From Halovivax cerinus (GTDB taxonomy: Archaea; Halobacteriota; Halobacteria; Halobacteriales; Natrialbaceae), in contig NZ_CP101824.1 of assembly GCF_024498195.1 (NCBI RefSeq), positions 3,534,001 through 3,598,000 of the forward strand: a stretch of DNA of 64,000 bases. Direction: 5' to 3'. The translations under genes were made by a program, and so were the position numbers. This document shows, piece after piece, positions 30,364 through 37,126 of the stretch. Position 1 is the stretch's first letter, and each line of letters starts with the position of its first letter. The notes under the pieces are model-generated. The model was not told where the DNA came from, did not search any database, and was given only the letters and a program-made list of their open reading frames with translations.

Positions 30364-30788
30364 ACTCGGCGGGGCACGTAAATCGGTGTTTCGTTCCGGC
30401 GCGGAGACGACGGCGATGGGCGTGTCTCCGAACGTCACGGCCGACGCGGATGCGACCTGGCCGAAACCACAAGACTCGTAGGTGCGTCGGGAGTAGTGAC
30501 CCCAATCAATGTCGTCCGACCGCAGGCCGTCAGGTTCACGCCCTCCCCGCGACGGTGAGTCCCGTCTGTGGCACCTGCGCGGACGCGGTCGGTCAGTTAG
30601 GGGCGACGAGTCGACGACGCGATCGGCCGGCGACCGGTCGATTCGATGGACGGGCCCGATCGCCGACGGACTGGCTGACGGTGGCCGACGGAGCCGAACC
30701 GTCTCGCCGTCTCCCTGTCCACTCGTGGCACGGATCAGTGCCTGTCGTAATGTAATTATAGGGCGAGAAACTTCACAGAGGTAAGAAA
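30364..30788. promoter_or_regulatory. Divergent region between rnp4 and the first binding protein
   Basis: No gene is recognised, although the rnp4 frame stays open through it. On the plus strand a TATA-like TAATTATAG (30753-30761) and a Shine-Dalgarno GAGGT (30778-30782) precede the ATG at 30789; a clear ribosome-binding site is unusual for this window, where leaderless starts dominate. Confidence 0.55.
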
Positions 30789-32531
30789 ATGACCGGGACC
30801 GGCGCGCCGTCGCGCGATCGTGTGAACCGGCGGTCGGTTCTCGCAACGGTGGGAACCGGGGCGTCACTGGCGACCGCCGGGTGCGCGGGGCTGTTCTCGC
30901 ACGTTTCGTCGCTGGACGATCAGCTCTCGGTGACGATAACCACGGTTCCGGACGACGACGATCGACAGAGCAACGGAATCTTCAAATACCTCGAAACGGC
31001 GCTGGAGGCCGCCGGCATCGACGTCGGCGTCGAACTGCGAACCACTGCGCAGCTCCAGCAGAAGGTGCTCGTAGACCAGGAGTTCGACATCTTCGTCGCC
31101 AGACACCCCGGCTTCAAACACCCGGACGGCCTCTACGAACTGCTTCACTCCCGGTTCGCCTCCGAACCCGGCTGGCAGAATCCGTACGGAGTGACGCATA
31201 TGGACCTGGACGAGCATCTCGAGGCACAGCGTCACCTCACCGGAGAGGAGCGGACGGCGGCGATCGGTGACGCGCTCGACATCGTTCTCAAAGAGAAACC
31301 GTTCGTCCCGGTCTGTGCCCCGTCGACGTATTACGCCGTCAACCCGGAGCAGTTCGGTGGGTGGGACCGACAGACGTTCCGGACGCGCCTGGGGTTCGTC
31401 GACCTCGATCCGGCCGACGGGGTCGACGCGTTCACCGGGCTCGTGACCGATTCGAGACCGACCGTGAACCTGAACCCGCTCGCCGTCCAGTACCGTCGAA
31501 CTGGCGTGTACACGTCGCTGCTGTACGACTCGCTGGCGACCGAGTCGAACGGCGATCTGATACCGTGGCTGGCGAGCGACTGGGAGTGGGCCGACGACCG
31601 CGTGACAGCCACCCTCAGGCCGGACGTCACGTTCCACGACGGCGAATCACTCACGGCCACCGACGTCGCGTTCACGTTCGACTTCCTCGAAGATCTCTCG
31701 CTCGGCCGGGCGGAGTCGCCGATACCGGCCTCTCGGTTCCGCAGGCACACGTCGACGGTGGAGACCGTCACTCCGGTCGACGACGAAACGGTCGAGATAA
31801 CCGTCAGCACGAACCGCACCGTCGGCGCGTCGGCTCTCACCGTCCCGATCCTTCCCGAACACGTGTGGCGCCCGATCGTGACGGAGTTAGAGCAAGAGAC
31901 CGCCTCGACCGGACCGTGGCTCAGAGAGGAACTGCACGCAGAGACGATCCCCCGGACCGGGAGCGGACCGTACCGATTCGACGGCTGGACGCAGGGAGAC
32001 CAGGTGACGTTCACGCGATTCGACGAGCACTTCGCGATCGACGACCCCGACCTTCCGTCGGCGCCCGTCGACCAGTTACAGGTACAATCGGCGCCCAACG
32101 GGTCGACCGCGATCGGACTCGTAGACCGAGGCGACGCCACCGCGCTCGTGACGCCGATCGAATCCCACGTCGTCGGGGAGACCGAATCGACCGAGACCGC
32201 CAAACGGATCTCTGATCCGAACTGGGCGTTTTACCAGGTGGGATTCAACACGAGGGAACCCCCGTTCAGCAACTTCAGGTTCAGGCAGGCGGTGGCGTCA
32301 CTGATCGACCGGGAGTGGCTCGCCTCGGAGGTCTTTCACGGACACGCCCGTCCGATCGCGGTACCCGATATGGAGTCGGCCGCGATCGACGACTACACGT
32401 GGAACGGTGCCGACCCGGAGACGCCGTTCGTCGGCACGGACGGCGAAGTCGACGTCGAGGCGGCCCGCGACCTGTTCGAAGTGGCGAGCTACCGATACAA
32501 CGACGAGGGAGAACTGGTGGTGAACGACTGA
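30789..32531 (+). CDS. Family-5 solute-binding lipoprotein with permuted domain order (copy A)
   Basis: 580 residues. Tat-type lipoprotein signal (RVNRRSVLAT, lipobox ATAGC near residue 32). Residues 45-205 look like the C-terminal lobe of SBP_bac_5 proteins (VEQ-type strand SVTITTV, EFDIFVARHPGF, EERTAAIGDALDIVLKEKPFVPV). Residues 225-580 then look like the normal N-terminal and middle parts: NLNPLAVQY, LYDSLA, LASDWEW, FHDGESLTATDVAFTF, GSGPYRF, GFNTREPPFSNFRFRQAVASLIDR, ending at YNDEGELVVND. The order is thus circularly permuted. No permease genes are adjacent. The stop overlaps the PAP2 start by one base. The ligand is unknown. Confidence 0.85.
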   Translation: MTGTGAPSRDRVNRRSVLATVGTGASLATAGCAGLFSHVSSLDDQLSVTITTVPDDDDRQSNGIFKYLETALEAAGIDVGVELRTTAQLQQKVLVDQEFDIFVARHPGFKHPDGLYELLHSRFASEPGWQNPYGVTHMDLDEHLEAQRHLTGEERTAAIGDALDIVLKEKPFVPVCAPSTYYAVNPEQFGGWDRQTFRTRLGFVDLDPADGVDAFTGLVTDSRPTVNLNPLAVQYRRTGVYTSLLYDSLATESNGDLIPWLASDWEWADDRVTATLRPDVTFHDGESLTATDVAFTFDFLEDLSLGRAESPIPASRFRRHTSTVETVTPVDDETVEITVSTNRTVGASALTVPILPEHVWRPIVTELEQETASTGPWLREELHAETIPRTGSGPYRFDGWTQGDQVTFTRFDEHFAIDDPDLPSAPVDQLQVQSAPNGSTAIGLVDRGDATALVTPIESHVVGETESTETAKRISDPNWAFYQVGFNTREPPFSNFRFRQAVASLIDREWLASEVFHGHARPIAVPDMESAAIDDYTWNGADPETPFVGTDGEVDVEAARDLFEVASYRYNDEGELVVND

Positions 32532-33385
32532 TGTTCGTGTCGATCCTGGGCCGGGTGTCTCTGGTCGTGACCGCCCTGCTGGTGCTCGGTATCTGGAGAG
32601 TCATCGGTTTCGAGACACTGCACCAGGCGCTTCGGGATTGGCGGCCACGGATTCGGTCAGTCCTGCCCGTAACCATCGCTCTCGCACCCGTGTTGATCGT
32701 GAACAAACTTGCACGCCAGTCACTCGTCACCATCTCCCAGGAGTACGGACTCCGCGTTGGTGATCTCTTCTACGAGATCGAAGGCGGGTTCATCCTCGTC
32801 TTCGAAGTGATCTGGTCGCCGGCGACGACGCACTACTTCTCGTTTATCTACATCTACGGGTACGCGTTCTTGCTCGTGTTCCCGATCGTGATGTACTTCA
32901 CGCTGCGGGATACGACCACTTTGCGCCGGCTCCTGGGCGCGTACGCACTCAACTACGCGATCGGCGTCACCCTCTACGTGGTCTTTCACGCGTTCGGTCC
33001 CCGTCAGTACCTCGGGGGAGAGATCGAGACGATGCTCTATCAGGTCCAGCCGAACGTACAGTACCTGACCAGGGAGATCAATCACTACACGAACGTCTTC
33101 CCCTCGTTACACACGTCGCTTTCGGCGACGGTCATGTTGTTCGCCATCGAGTCGCGGTCGGAGTTTCCGGCCTGGACGCCGGTCGCGATCGTCCTCGCAG
33201 TCAGCGTCTGGCTCTCGACGATGTACCTCGGGATTCACTGGGCGATCGACGTCCTCGCCGGACTGATACTCGCCGTCGTCTGCGTCGACCTGTCTCACAG
33301 GCTGATCGGCCGATTCGACGTCGATCGTCGGCTCGAATCGGTCTACGACTGGATCGCGTCGATCCGCGGCCGCATCGGGGCGTGA
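32531..33385 (+). CDS. PAP2-superfamily membrane phosphatase or phosphotransferase
   Basis: 284 residues, about six membrane helices. PAP2 core motifs: PSLHTSLSATVM (motif 2, with its His) and STMYLGIHWAIDVLAG (motif 3, with His and Asp). The Arg usual in motif 3 is Thr, and the K-x6-RP motif 1 is not seen clearly (NKLARQ). This pattern is nearest to the PAP2_3/inositol phosphotransferase branch. Members act on lipid phosphates or transfer head groups at the membrane. The ATG overlaps the stop of binding protein A by one base (TGATG), so expression is coupled. Confidence 0.85.
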   Translation: MFVSILGRVSLVVTALLVLGIWRVIGFETLHQALRDWRPRIRSVLPVTIALAPVLIVNKLARQSLVTISQEYGLRVGDLFYEIEGGFILVFEVIWSPATTHYFSFIYIYGYAFLLVFPIVMYFTLRDTTTLRRLLGAYALNYAIGVTLYVVFHAFGPRQYLGGEIETMLYQVQPNVQYLTREINHYTNVFPSLHTSLSATVMLFAIESRSEFPAWTPVAIVLAVSVWLSTMYLGIHWAIDVLAGLILAVVCVDLSHRLIGRFDVDRRLESVYDWIASIRGRIGA

Positions 33386-33502
33386 GTCGAGAGTGGGACG
33401 ACCGATCTGGCCGAAGTTCCGGACGAGCGGGTATCGGTTCGCAGTCGCGGGGCAGAGCGGCGGAGACCACCTACCGGCCGACGAGCCGCGTGCGTAATAC
33501 CC

Positions 33503-33510
33503 TTATATCT
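33503..33510 (+). promoter_or_regulatory. TATA box of binding protein B
   Basis: TTATATCT, centred about 30 bases before the ATG at 33537, fits a leaderless transcript. Gene B therefore has its own promoter although it follows the A-PAP2 pair. Confidence 0.6.
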
Positions 33511-33536
33511 CTCCTGTCGAACGGCAAACGAACTGA

Positions 33537-35276
33537 ATGGATCCCGTAGTTCCCGATACCCCGCTCTCCAGACGGGCACTCCTCGGCGCGGTGACGGCCG
33601 GAACGGTGGCGGCCGGTGCCGGCTGTCTGAGCGGCGTCCGAACGTTCCTCAGAGGCGAACCGGTCGACGAGTTCACGTTGTCGGTCGCGAGCGTCGACGA
33701 GTCCAGCGATCCACAGGCTGCCTCGGTGGCGGCGATTCTCGAACGCGCCCTCGAAACGGCGGGAATGACCGTCGACCGGACGACCCACTCGCGCGAGGAG
33801 TTCTTCCGCCGGATCCTCGTCGACCACGAGTTCGATCTCTTCGTCTGGCGGACGCCGCCCGTTCGCGATCCGGCAGTCCTCTACGAGGCGCTGCACACGC
33901 GTTTCGCAGACGAAGCCGGCCTGCAGAATCCGTACGGGTTCACGAACGCCACGTTCGAGTCCACGCTCGATCGACTGCGCGCAGCGTCGGACGGCGACCG
34001 CCGACGGGAGACCAGGCGAACGCTCGAATCGTTCGCCGACAACCAACCGTTCACGCCATTGTGTCGCCCGACCGCTAGTCACCTGTCGAACACCGATCGG
34101 TTCGCCGGCGTCGGTCGGTACCCACTCGAGGAGCGCTACGCGTACCTCGATATCGAACCCGTCGACGACGCGGAGACGCTCACCATGGTAACGACCGACC
34201 CGGACGTGACCCGTTCGTTCAATCCGCTGGGAATCGACCGGCCGCACTGGAACTATCCGACCGAGACGTTGCTCTACGACTCCCTCGCGACGGCGGCTGA
34301 CGACACGCTCGTTCCGTGGCTGGCAGCGGAGTGGAACTGGTCCGACGGCGCCGCCACCGTCACGTTACGTGCGACTGACTGGCACGATGGCGACACCGTC
34401 ACCGCGTCCGACGTGGCATTTACCTACGACTTTCTCACGGACACGACCGCTGGAACGGGCGACGTACCGATTCCCGCACCCATCCACAGGGGACTGGCGT
34501 CTGCGATCGAAGCCGTCGACGTACTCGATGACCGCCGCCTTCGAATCGTCCCCGCGGGCGGTGCGGCCGCCGCCGAACGAGCGTTCACCGTCCCGATCCT
34601 GCCGGAACACATCTGGAGCGAGCGGACGGACCGAACCGGCTTCTTCGAGGTGGATTCGCCCGGCGGGACGACGCGGGCGATCGCCACCGACAACGTGGCG
34701 CCGGTCGGCAGCGGGCTCTTCGAGTACGTGTCTCACACCGCAGGACAACGCCTCGAACTCCGGCGAAACGACGAGCACTTTTCGACGACCGAGACGGACC
34801 AATCGGCGTCGATCGCGAGGATCGTGGTGACGGTCGCGGACGATTCTGGGGCCGCGATCGACGACGTTCGATCCGGGCGTGCGGACGTGACGCTCTCGGC
34901 GCTGGCACCGACGTTCGCCGATTCCTACGCGCCGGCTGACCCGTTCGTCGTCCACAGGCGTCCGAGCGGGTCGATCTATGCCGTCGGATACAACACACGG
35001 AGCGCACCCCTCTCGAGCCCGTACGTCCGACGGACGGTCGCGCGATTGCTCGACAAGGCGTGGCTGGTCGAGACCGTCTTCGAGGGAGCCGCCGAACCGA
35101 TCGCGTCCCCGATCGGCGACCCCTGGCAACCGTCCACACTGGCGTGGGAGTCCGAGGATCCAGTGACGCCGTACCTGGGCGAAGACGGAGAGCTTGACGT
35201 TCCGTCGGTCAGGCGAGCGTTCGAGGAACTGGGATACGGCTACGACGACGAGGGCAATCTGCTCGTCGAGGGCTGA
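33537..35276 (+). CDS. Family-5 solute-binding lipoprotein with permuted domain order (copy B)
   Basis: 579 residues, paralogue of copy A with the same unusual order. Tat lipoprotein signal (SRRALLGAVTAG, lipobox GAGC near residue 30). Residues 44-205 resemble the family's C-terminal lobe (EFTLSVASVDES, EFDLFVWRTPP, LQNPYGFTNATFE, PFTPLCRPTA). Then come SFNPLGIDR, LLYDSLATA, LAAEWNWSDG, WHDGDTVTASDVAFTYDF, GYNTRSAPLSSPYVRRTVARLLDK, and an end at YDDEGNLLVEG. The GxGPY motif is altered to GSGLF. The two copies are alignable over their full length, so permutation preceded duplication. Extracytoplasmic, ligand unknown. Confidence 0.85.
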   Translation: MDPVVPDTPLSRRALLGAVTAGTVAAGAGCLSGVRTFLRGEPVDEFTLSVASVDESSDPQAASVAAILERALETAGMTVDRTTHSREEFFRRILVDHEFDLFVWRTPPVRDPAVLYEALHTRFADEAGLQNPYGFTNATFESTLDRLRAASDGDRRRETRRTLESFADNQPFTPLCRPTASHLSNTDRFAGVGRYPLEERYAYLDIEPVDDAETLTMVTTDPDVTRSFNPLGIDRPHWNYPTETLLYDSLATAADDTLVPWLAAEWNWSDGAATVTLRATDWHDGDTVTASDVAFTYDFLTDTTAGTGDVPIPAPIHRGLASAIEAVDVLDDRRLRIVPAGGAAAAERAFTVPILPEHIWSERTDRTGFFEVDSPGGTTRAIATDNVAPVGSGLFEYVSHTAGQRLELRRNDEHFSTTETDQSASIARIVVTVADDSGAAIDDVRSGRADVTLSALAPTFADSYAPADPFVVHRRPSGSIYAVGYNTRSAPLSSPYVRRTVARLLDKAWLVETVFEGAAEPIASPIGDPWQPSTLAWESEDPVTPYLGEDGELDVPSVRRAFEELGYGYDDEGNLLVEG

Positions 35277-35929: not shown

Positions 35930-36694
35930 TCAGTCGGTGGCGAAGGCGCCGAGCGACGACTGCCGATCGGCCGGTTCGCCGTCTGGATCGAGGACGTGTC
36001 CGACGAGGTCGCGCAGGTCGACGGCGTACGCCGTTCCGCGTCGGTCGAGGACGAGGAGACGTCCCTTGACGCCGAGGACGGTGCCGGTCGCGATCGTCTC
36101 GGTCACCGGACGCGAGGCAAGCGAGAGGCCGTACTCGAACGAGAACCGCTCGATCGGGTCGAACGCCGCGAGCAGTGAGTCCCAGGCGGACTCGTCGACG
36201 CGTTCGGAGAGACCAGCGATCTTTCGACCGACGCGGACGCGGTCGGTGAGGTCGGTCGCCAGTTCCGCCTCGATTTCGCGGGCGATACGGCCGTTTCGAA
36301 CCGTTCGCACGTGGGCTCCGCGGTCCGCCCCTTGCTCTCTGAGGCGCGTTTCGAGGCGTTCGAGGCGTGTCACACCAACCTTGAACGTGTCTGGGGCGAA
36401 CGCGGCGAGATAGATCGCGTGCTCGTCGTAACAGTCCATCTCGTCCTTGAGGCAGGTACCGGTACACCGTGCGCACACCCACGTCGACGTGTGTGCCTCG
36501 CAGTACGGCGTTCCGGCGCGGGTACACGGCACGTGTCGTCCGGACTCGTGGTCGACGACACCCGCGCAATGGCGCTCGCCGAGGCCGAAGTCGATGGTCT
36601 CGCCGCGTTCGAGCGACGCCCGAGAGACAGCCCCGCCGTCGCTTACAAGCAGCGACGAGCCCCGGCCCGCCCGTTCGTAGCCCACGATCTGCAC
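35930..36694 (-). CDS. DUF2797 protein
   Basis: 254 residues. Zinc-binding-like start: ERHCAGVVDHESGRHVPC and HTSTWVCARCTGTCLKDEMDC (several Cys pairs). The conserved YLAAFAPDTFKVGVTRLERLETRLREQGA of DUF2797 follows, which resembles a GIY-YIG-like half-domain (KVGVT, REQGA). The C-terminal 60 residues form a beta-barrel-like domain. The GTG at 36694 (VQIVGYERAG) matches the usual family N-terminus. Function unknown; nucleic acid binding is plausible from the zinc motifs. Confidence 0.85.
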   Translation of the reverse strand: MQIVGYERAGRGSSLLVSDGGAVSRASLERGETIDFGLGERHCAGVVDHESGRHVPCTRAGTPYCEAHTSTWVCARCTGTCLKDEMDCYDEHAIYLAAFAPDTFKVGVTRLERLETRLREQGADRGAHVRTVRNGRIAREIEAELATDLTDRVRVGRKIAGLSERVDESAWDSLLAAFDPIERFSFEYGLSLASRPVTETIATGTVLGVKGRLLVLDRRGTAYAVDLRDLVGHVLDPDGEPADRQSSLGAFATD

Positions 36695-36793
36695 GCCGGA
36701 GGCTACGCGTCCGCGCGCCAAATGCGTGGCGCTCGGTACGGTTAGGGACAGCAGGAGCAAAGATTTAGGGGAAAGCGTGGCGAATGTCGATCG

Positions 36794-37126
36794 ATGACAC
36801 TCGAAGGATCACTCGACGCGGCGACAGACGACGACTCCGTCACGTTCACGCTGACCGTCGAGAACACGGGGAGTGAACCCACAACGGCCCAGTTCTCGGA
36901 CGGCTGTCGGGTTGACGTGGCCGTCTACGACGGTGAGACGGAGATCTGGCGGTACACGGACGGAATGATGTTCATGCAAGTTCTCGGACAGGAGCGGTTC
37001 GAGCCCGGCGACCCCCGAACGTTCGAGGTGACGTGGGACGACCCGACTGCCGGGACGTTCACCGCCGTTGGCGAACTCACCGCAACTGACCGTTCGTGTG
37101 AGGCGCGGACCGACGTCTCGATCTGA
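36794..37126 (+). CDS. BsuPI-type proteinase inhibitor domain protein
   Basis: 110 residues forming one Ig-like domain. VTFTLTVENTGSEPTTAQFSDGCRVDVAVYD, then EIWRYTDGMMFMQVLG and FEPGDPRTFEVTWD follow the BsuPI (intracellular proteinase inhibitor) pattern. No signal peptide, so it is cytoplasmic like the Bacillus inhibitor of the ISP protease. Inhibitory activity here is inference. Divergent from DUF2797. Confidence 0.8.
   Translation: MTLEGSLDAATDDDSVTFTLTVENTGSEPTTAQFSDGCRVDVAVYDGETEIWRYTDGMMFMQVLGQERFEPGDPRTFEVTWDDPTAGTFTAVGELTATDRSCEARTDVSI

Follow-up and report, generated by a model that had tools for sequence, protein, structure and literature searches.

Two binding lipoproteins encoded in the analysed window, a stretch of 64,000 nucleotides from Halovivax cerinus, are almost certainly circularly permuted members of family 5 (SBP_bac_5, cluster C). 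Comparisons at the level of sequence establish circular permutation in both proteins, P0001 and P0002, and in about 159 distinct relatives. The best explanation as a whole, to which we give a little less than an even chance, is that these clade-A proteins were permuted once, carry their lipid anchor on domain III and are paired with a PAP2 enzyme independently of any ABC importer. The PAP2 gene lies between P0001 and P0002 (Table 1) and was absent from an earlier note on this DNA, although it falls inside the interval that the note covered; the lack of ABC genes and the independent permutations elsewhere in this genome likewise had no place in it. The recurrence of the permutation and the coupling to PAP2 are the surprising parts of the finding.

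Table 1. Features of the P0001–PAP2–P0002 cluster, in positions of the window
Feature	Position	Strand	Basis or remark
TATA-like box TTATAG	30756..30761	+	about 30 bp 5´ of P0001 start codon; read from sequence
P0001, permuted family-5 binding lipoprotein, clade A, 580 aa	30789..32531	+	profiles, model
P0001 Tat signal with lipobox, residues 1–32 (Cys32)	30789..30884	+	sequence
P0001 residues 42–214, counterpart of the C-terminal portion of normal-order family-5 proteins (DppA 346–487, AppA 355–498)	30912..31430	+	profile matches
P0001 residues 215–580, counterpart of the N-terminal and middle portions of normal-order family-5 proteins (Pfam profile 2–285)	31431..32528	+	profile matches
PAP2_3 (PF14378) polytopic membrane enzyme, 284 aa	32531..33385	+	ATG overlaps P0001 stop codon by one base
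TATA-like box CTTATAT	33502..33508	+	about 30 bp 5´ of P0002 start; read from sequence
P0002, second permuted family-5 binding lipoprotein, clade A, 579 aa	33537..35276	+	35% identical to P0001

Swapped order of the family-5 parts

Both open reading frames were confirmed at the positions in Table 1. The TATA-like box upstream of P0001 is consistent with a predicted leaderless transcript, and that upstream of P0002 suggests a separate predicted promoter. Each protein has a twin-arginine motif and a lipobox (NRRSVLA...ATAGC in P0001, SRRALLG...GAGC in P0002), a Tat lipoprotein signal like that of the other family-5 proteins encoded in this genome. In an alignment of relatives (A1), Arg14-Arg15 is invariant and Cys32 nearly so, from which clade-A proteins are predicted to be exported and membrane-anchored.

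The Pfam SBP_bac_5 profile (PF00496) aligns through its positions 2–285 to P0001 residues 257–575 and through positions 1–283 to P0002 residues 257–572, with 160.8 and 128 bits, respectively, against a gathering cut-off of 32.4. When the N-terminal 220 residues of P0001 are searched alone against all of Pfam, residues 41–114 match profile positions 287–355 (E 0.0078). The parts of PF00496 are thus present in swapped rather than canonical collinear order, and P0001 and P0002 are therefore described as a permuted derivative of family 5. Profile libraries see the collinear part only, so that annotation hides the permutation.

Separate HMMs for the tail (residues 42–213) and main (residues 218–578) parts were made from a 62-row alignment (A2). 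The tail HMM matches the C-terminal part (approximately residues 360–555) of eight of the nine ordinary family-5 proteins that this genome encodes, with the eighth matched weakly, and the main HMM matches the front of such proteins; in one of them, L001, the tail profile (7–147) is found at residues 377–534 and the main profile at 59–373. Nine reversed decoys gave no significant match to the part HMMs. Single solved chains give the same picture. In AppA (1XOC), query residues 225–523 correspond to chain 39–313 and query 33–180 to chain 355–498, 5ISU also matches both parts in swapped order, and the tail profile by itself falls on DppA 346–487. The earlier note had likened the N-terminal segment to the C-terminal lobe of family-5 proteins and had placed the start of the usual N-terminal landmarks late in the chain. 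Both observations hold: about 170 folded residues at the start correspond to the last third of ordinary family-5 proteins from the same genome and the PDB, and the remaining 360 or so match the front of ordinary ones.

A collinear SBP_bac_5 match and an unrelated N-terminal family, the two outcomes that the note had named as speaking against it, were looked for and neither was found. The N-terminal part of P0002 alone obtains just a weak OpuAC match in Pfam, as might be expected of an unrelated domain placed ahead of a truncated family-5 domain without any permutation. For clade A, such a domain is ruled out by the swapped-order matches to profiles of family-5 proteins from the same genome and to solved chains, and a clade-B protein (L183) aligns in swapped order to its normal-order counterpart (L205) at 64% and 72% identity. 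The probability left to this alternative is negligible.

An AlphaFold2 model, the structure prediction suggested in the earlier note, consists of one compact domain (pLDDT 89.1, pTM 0.86). Its 50 best matches in Foldseek, a sequential aligner, are all family-5 proteins, mostly over some 320–480 columns with TM 0.30–0.54 and, for those at the top, over about 380 columns with TM 0.37–0.54, and partial columns and low TM are what such an aligner is expected to return for a permutant. With respect to the three-domain fold of cluster C, the model combines a pLDDT of 89 and family-5 top matches with a TM of at most 0.54 under sequential alignment.

P0001 and P0002 share a sequence family and a predicted fold with DppA, AppA and NikA of family 5/cluster C (PF00496). 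Unlike these, clade A is circularly permuted and without a linked ABC importer. Natural circular permutation is already known among ABC-type binding proteins from TpMglB-2 of Treponema pallidum, for which a cluster Bc was proposed and an adaptation to anchoring suggested (PMC4990184). TpMglB-2 is also lipid-anchored, but it is a bacterial protein with a cluster B (type I) sugar-binding fold and another cut site, and is assigned to an ABC transporter. P0001 and P0002 are permuted, yet belong to cluster C and not cluster Bc by sequence and fold search. We found no precedent for a permuted family-5 protein in the open-access literature searched, outside which most subscription papers fall.

Clade A, its anchor and its genomic partner

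The same order was sought in other haloarchaea, a check that the earlier note had put forward. At a threshold of E up to 1e-90, 246 of the 392 Halobacteriales genomes sampled contain matches to the permuted profile, representing 68 of 95 genera, and all 159 distinct clade-A genes read are permuted. In a 247-genome sample of the phylum, no member of the permuted clade occurred outside Halobacteriales, and the matches listed there cover the collinear part only. In a tree that includes 23 clade-A genes, both window copies among them, clade A forms a group with support of 100. Since this group is monophyletic and all its members are permuted, the permutation is older than the split of P0001 and P0002, in line with the proposal of one permutation before their duplication.

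The new N-terminus of clade A maps to about DppA residue 346, which we take to lie in domain III and not in domain I. From this position it follows that the lipid anchor does move to a different lobe, as had been anticipated. In the mechanism that we propose, the chain would have been opened in the loop before a domain-III strand, the old C- and N-termini would have been fused, and a Tat lipoprotein signal would have come to head the new N-terminus, thereby moving the anchor from domain I to domain III. This would have occurred once, in an early haloarchaeon, the probable route being tandem duplication with partial deletion. No full tandem duplicate, the intermediate of such a permutation, was noticed in an unsystematic look, and outside haloarchaea no ancestor of clade A with normal order was found next to a PAP2 gene.

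The clade-A gene is followed directly, on the same strand, by a PAP2 gene in 74 of 75 named loci. The exception is L122 of Halorussus amylolyticus, with no detectable PAP2 downstream; another clade-A locus of the same strain, L127, has one. Counted by genes, PAP2 comes directly after 130 of the 159 distinct clade-A genes, and in 77 of these cases the stop codon of the first overlaps the start codon of the second. Almost all of the remaining genes encode the second SBP in an sbp1-pap2-sbp2 cluster, as in the window. We read this as near-invariant translational coupling. We consider the conserved SBP–PAP2 unit very well established. Genes for a DUF2797 protein (35930–36760 in the window) and a BsuPI-domain protein (36794–37126) recur beside the cluster in Natrialbaceae.

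The partner gene matches PF14378 with 58.9 bits against a cut-off of 27. Among 114 PAP2s, the catalytic motifs GPR, FPSLHTS and TMYLGIHWxxDVxAG are 92–100% conserved, and PSLH, HW and D are each at 100%. The closest solved relative is Aur1 inositol phosphorylceramide synthase, followed by the PgpB and LpxE types, with which the partner shares the PAP2_3 match and the histidine and aspartate motifs of PAP2. We know of no characterised enzyme of these types that is coupled to a binding protein, and nothing relevant on PAP2 paired with SBPs in haloarchaea was found in the open-access literature. A stand-alone close relative of the partner without an SBP is encoded in the same genome, at L280:7810-8667 (G000:C1:1937809-1938666); this paralog has no conserved neighbours in five genomes. 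In the stretches read, no SBP gene neighbours either the stand-alone haloarchaeal paralog or the PAP2 relatives of other classes.

In the flanks read of 73 of the 75 clade-A loci there is no Dpp-like ABC gene; cognate permease and ATPase genes are present for P0003 of clade B.

Possible roles of the binding protein–PAP2 pair

The active site of the PAP2 superfamily usually faces outward. The combination of an anchored SBP, a membrane enzyme of this outward-facing type and no importer favors a substrate-presenting or regulatory role. The pair would then need no ABC importer for its work outside the membrane: the anchored protein would capture or sense a solute or lipid head group and would deliver it to, or regulate, the Aur1/PgpB-like enzyme, similarly to LpqW with mycobacterial membrane glycosyltransferases. 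Such ABC-independent service of PAP2 is put forward tentatively, as a possibility somewhat below even. Clade A in any case represents a widespread and uncharacterised pairing of a binding protein with PAP2; it suggests a non-transport role for archaeal family-5 proteins and offers a way into a step of envelope or lipid metabolism in archaea that is yet to be described.

In mycobacteria, the family-5-like lipoprotein LpqW (PDB 2GRV) directs the synthesis of lipoglycans (PMC3229680; PMC7261415), and thus resembles the proposed system in controlling extracytoplasmic lipid-linked synthesis. It ranks fifth among the PDB matches of the clade-A tail profile (E 1.2e-5, with 65 residues aligned without gaps), and is not listed for the tail profile of the ABC-linked clade C despite the stronger matches of that profile overall. 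The matched tail of LpqW is found at chain 408–472, that is, in normal order, and its partners are the glycosyltransferases PimE and MptB, not PAP2. The likeness is short and could be due to convergence.

Some features argue against service of PAP2. The clade-A SBP may rely on an ABC importer from another locus; ten other family-5 SBPs are encoded in this genome, and dpp-type operons accompany at least some of them. Within a pair, the second SBP often lacks a PAP2 of its own. The anchor shift may also be neutral, since normal and permuted versions in clade B serve the same kind of operon. One alternative is scavenging: PAP2 would remove phosphate from an external organophosphate or lipid head group, and the permuted SBP would capture what is released and pass it to an ABC importer from another locus. 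In clade B, and in clade C at L061 and L064, the permuted proteins belong to dppBCDF operons, so that permutation is compatible with ABC delivery, and a few clade-A loci (L061, L064 and L108) lie beside a divergent dpp operon. We nevertheless consider scavenging less likely than not, given 73 of 75 clade-A loci with no ABC gene nearby, yet 74 with PAP2, and given that the closest PAP2 relatives of solved structure have membrane lipids, not soluble phosphates, as substrates.

Binding without transport has a parallel in the halobacterial chemotaxis binding proteins BasB and CosB, which work without import. By analogy, and in keeping with the lack of ABC genes at clade-A loci, the lipoprotein could be an orphan surface sensor, which on binding a solute would pass a signal to PAP2 or a transducer. 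The conserved neighbour is an enzyme, however, with no transducer, kinase or regulator conserved beside clade A, and we regard this explanation as improbable.

Recurrent permutation in clades B and C

The genome of the window encodes a third permuted family-5 protein, P0003 of clade B (654 aa; L071:7740-9704, equal to G000:C1:3483739-3485703), in a dppBCDF operon. Sister genera hold normal-order relatives. Compared with normal-order L205, P0003 residues 236–647 correspond to 137–548 (57% identity) and 43–225 to 552–734 (58%). The neighbourhood is alike for either form, with coaBC-like and regulator-like genes upstream in most cases and DppB, C, D and F downstream, which makes this an in-place permutation of an orthologous gene. 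Clade C (of the L061:2344-3987 type) is also permuted and adjoins dppBCDF in L061 and L064; its N-terminus lies one helix earlier (AEELIQEGFEAxG...) than in clades A and B.

In a tree of de-permuted sequences, order as a label needs at least three changes, forced by the starred branches, and separate trees of the main and tail parts also force at least three. A single origin of the clade-B and clade-C permutations, with B and C as one clade, was rejected (p-AU 1.4e-9). The simplest reading is that of at least three independent permutations with cuts within one short stretch, gain followed by reversal being the alternative; three gains are simplest because order is normal in the solved and the non-haloarchaeal proteins examined.

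What the order itself contributes may be little. Permutation could be neutral drift, both versions doing the same job and recurring through a permissive loop and frequent duplication and deletion. Orthologous clade-B operons carry either form with similar permeases, the DppB of normal-order operons being 68–75% identical to that of the operon of P0003, and the cut sites cluster at one loop region. Clade A, on the other hand, is permuted throughout its 68 genera and has another genomic partner, which still does not prove a benefit from the order itself. We hold neutral drift to be a real possibility, short of probable; it is compatible with an ABC-independent role with PAP2 as well as with a shared importer. 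The boldest joint reading is that of a two-component, ABC-independent surface system of haloarchaea, in which the permuted lipoprotein presents substrate to, or regulates, an Aur1-like PAP2 acting on membrane lipids, together with at least three permutations fixed at one loop region, including one in place in a conserved operon. We judge this reading as a whole to be possible, but somewhat less likely than not.

To our knowledge, few natural circular permutants have close orthologs that are not permuted. The clade-B pairs, at 57–72% identity and with the same operon and importer, make the effect of anchor position and folding order on binding, stability and transport directly measurable, and render testable the idea raised for TpMglB-2 that binding proteins are adapted by permutation to tethering at the membrane. 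Normal and permuted clade-B orthologs both have lipoboxes in the same operon, so that anchoring alone does not explain the permutation. The distance from the lipobox cysteine to the fold is about 12 residues in permuted L071:7740-9704 and about 37–40 acidic residues in normal-order L205:1099-3303 and L206:1333-3315, as if linker length had changed along with the permutation.

Different forms are also found close together. L249 (G022:C1:690000-709000) contains an operon with a permuted clade-B SBP and, some 10 kb on, a normal-order relative with Dpp genes of its own. At L061:2344-3987 and L064:16287-17936, a clade-C SBP with dppBCDF adjoins a clade-A SBP–PAP2 pair on the opposite strand.
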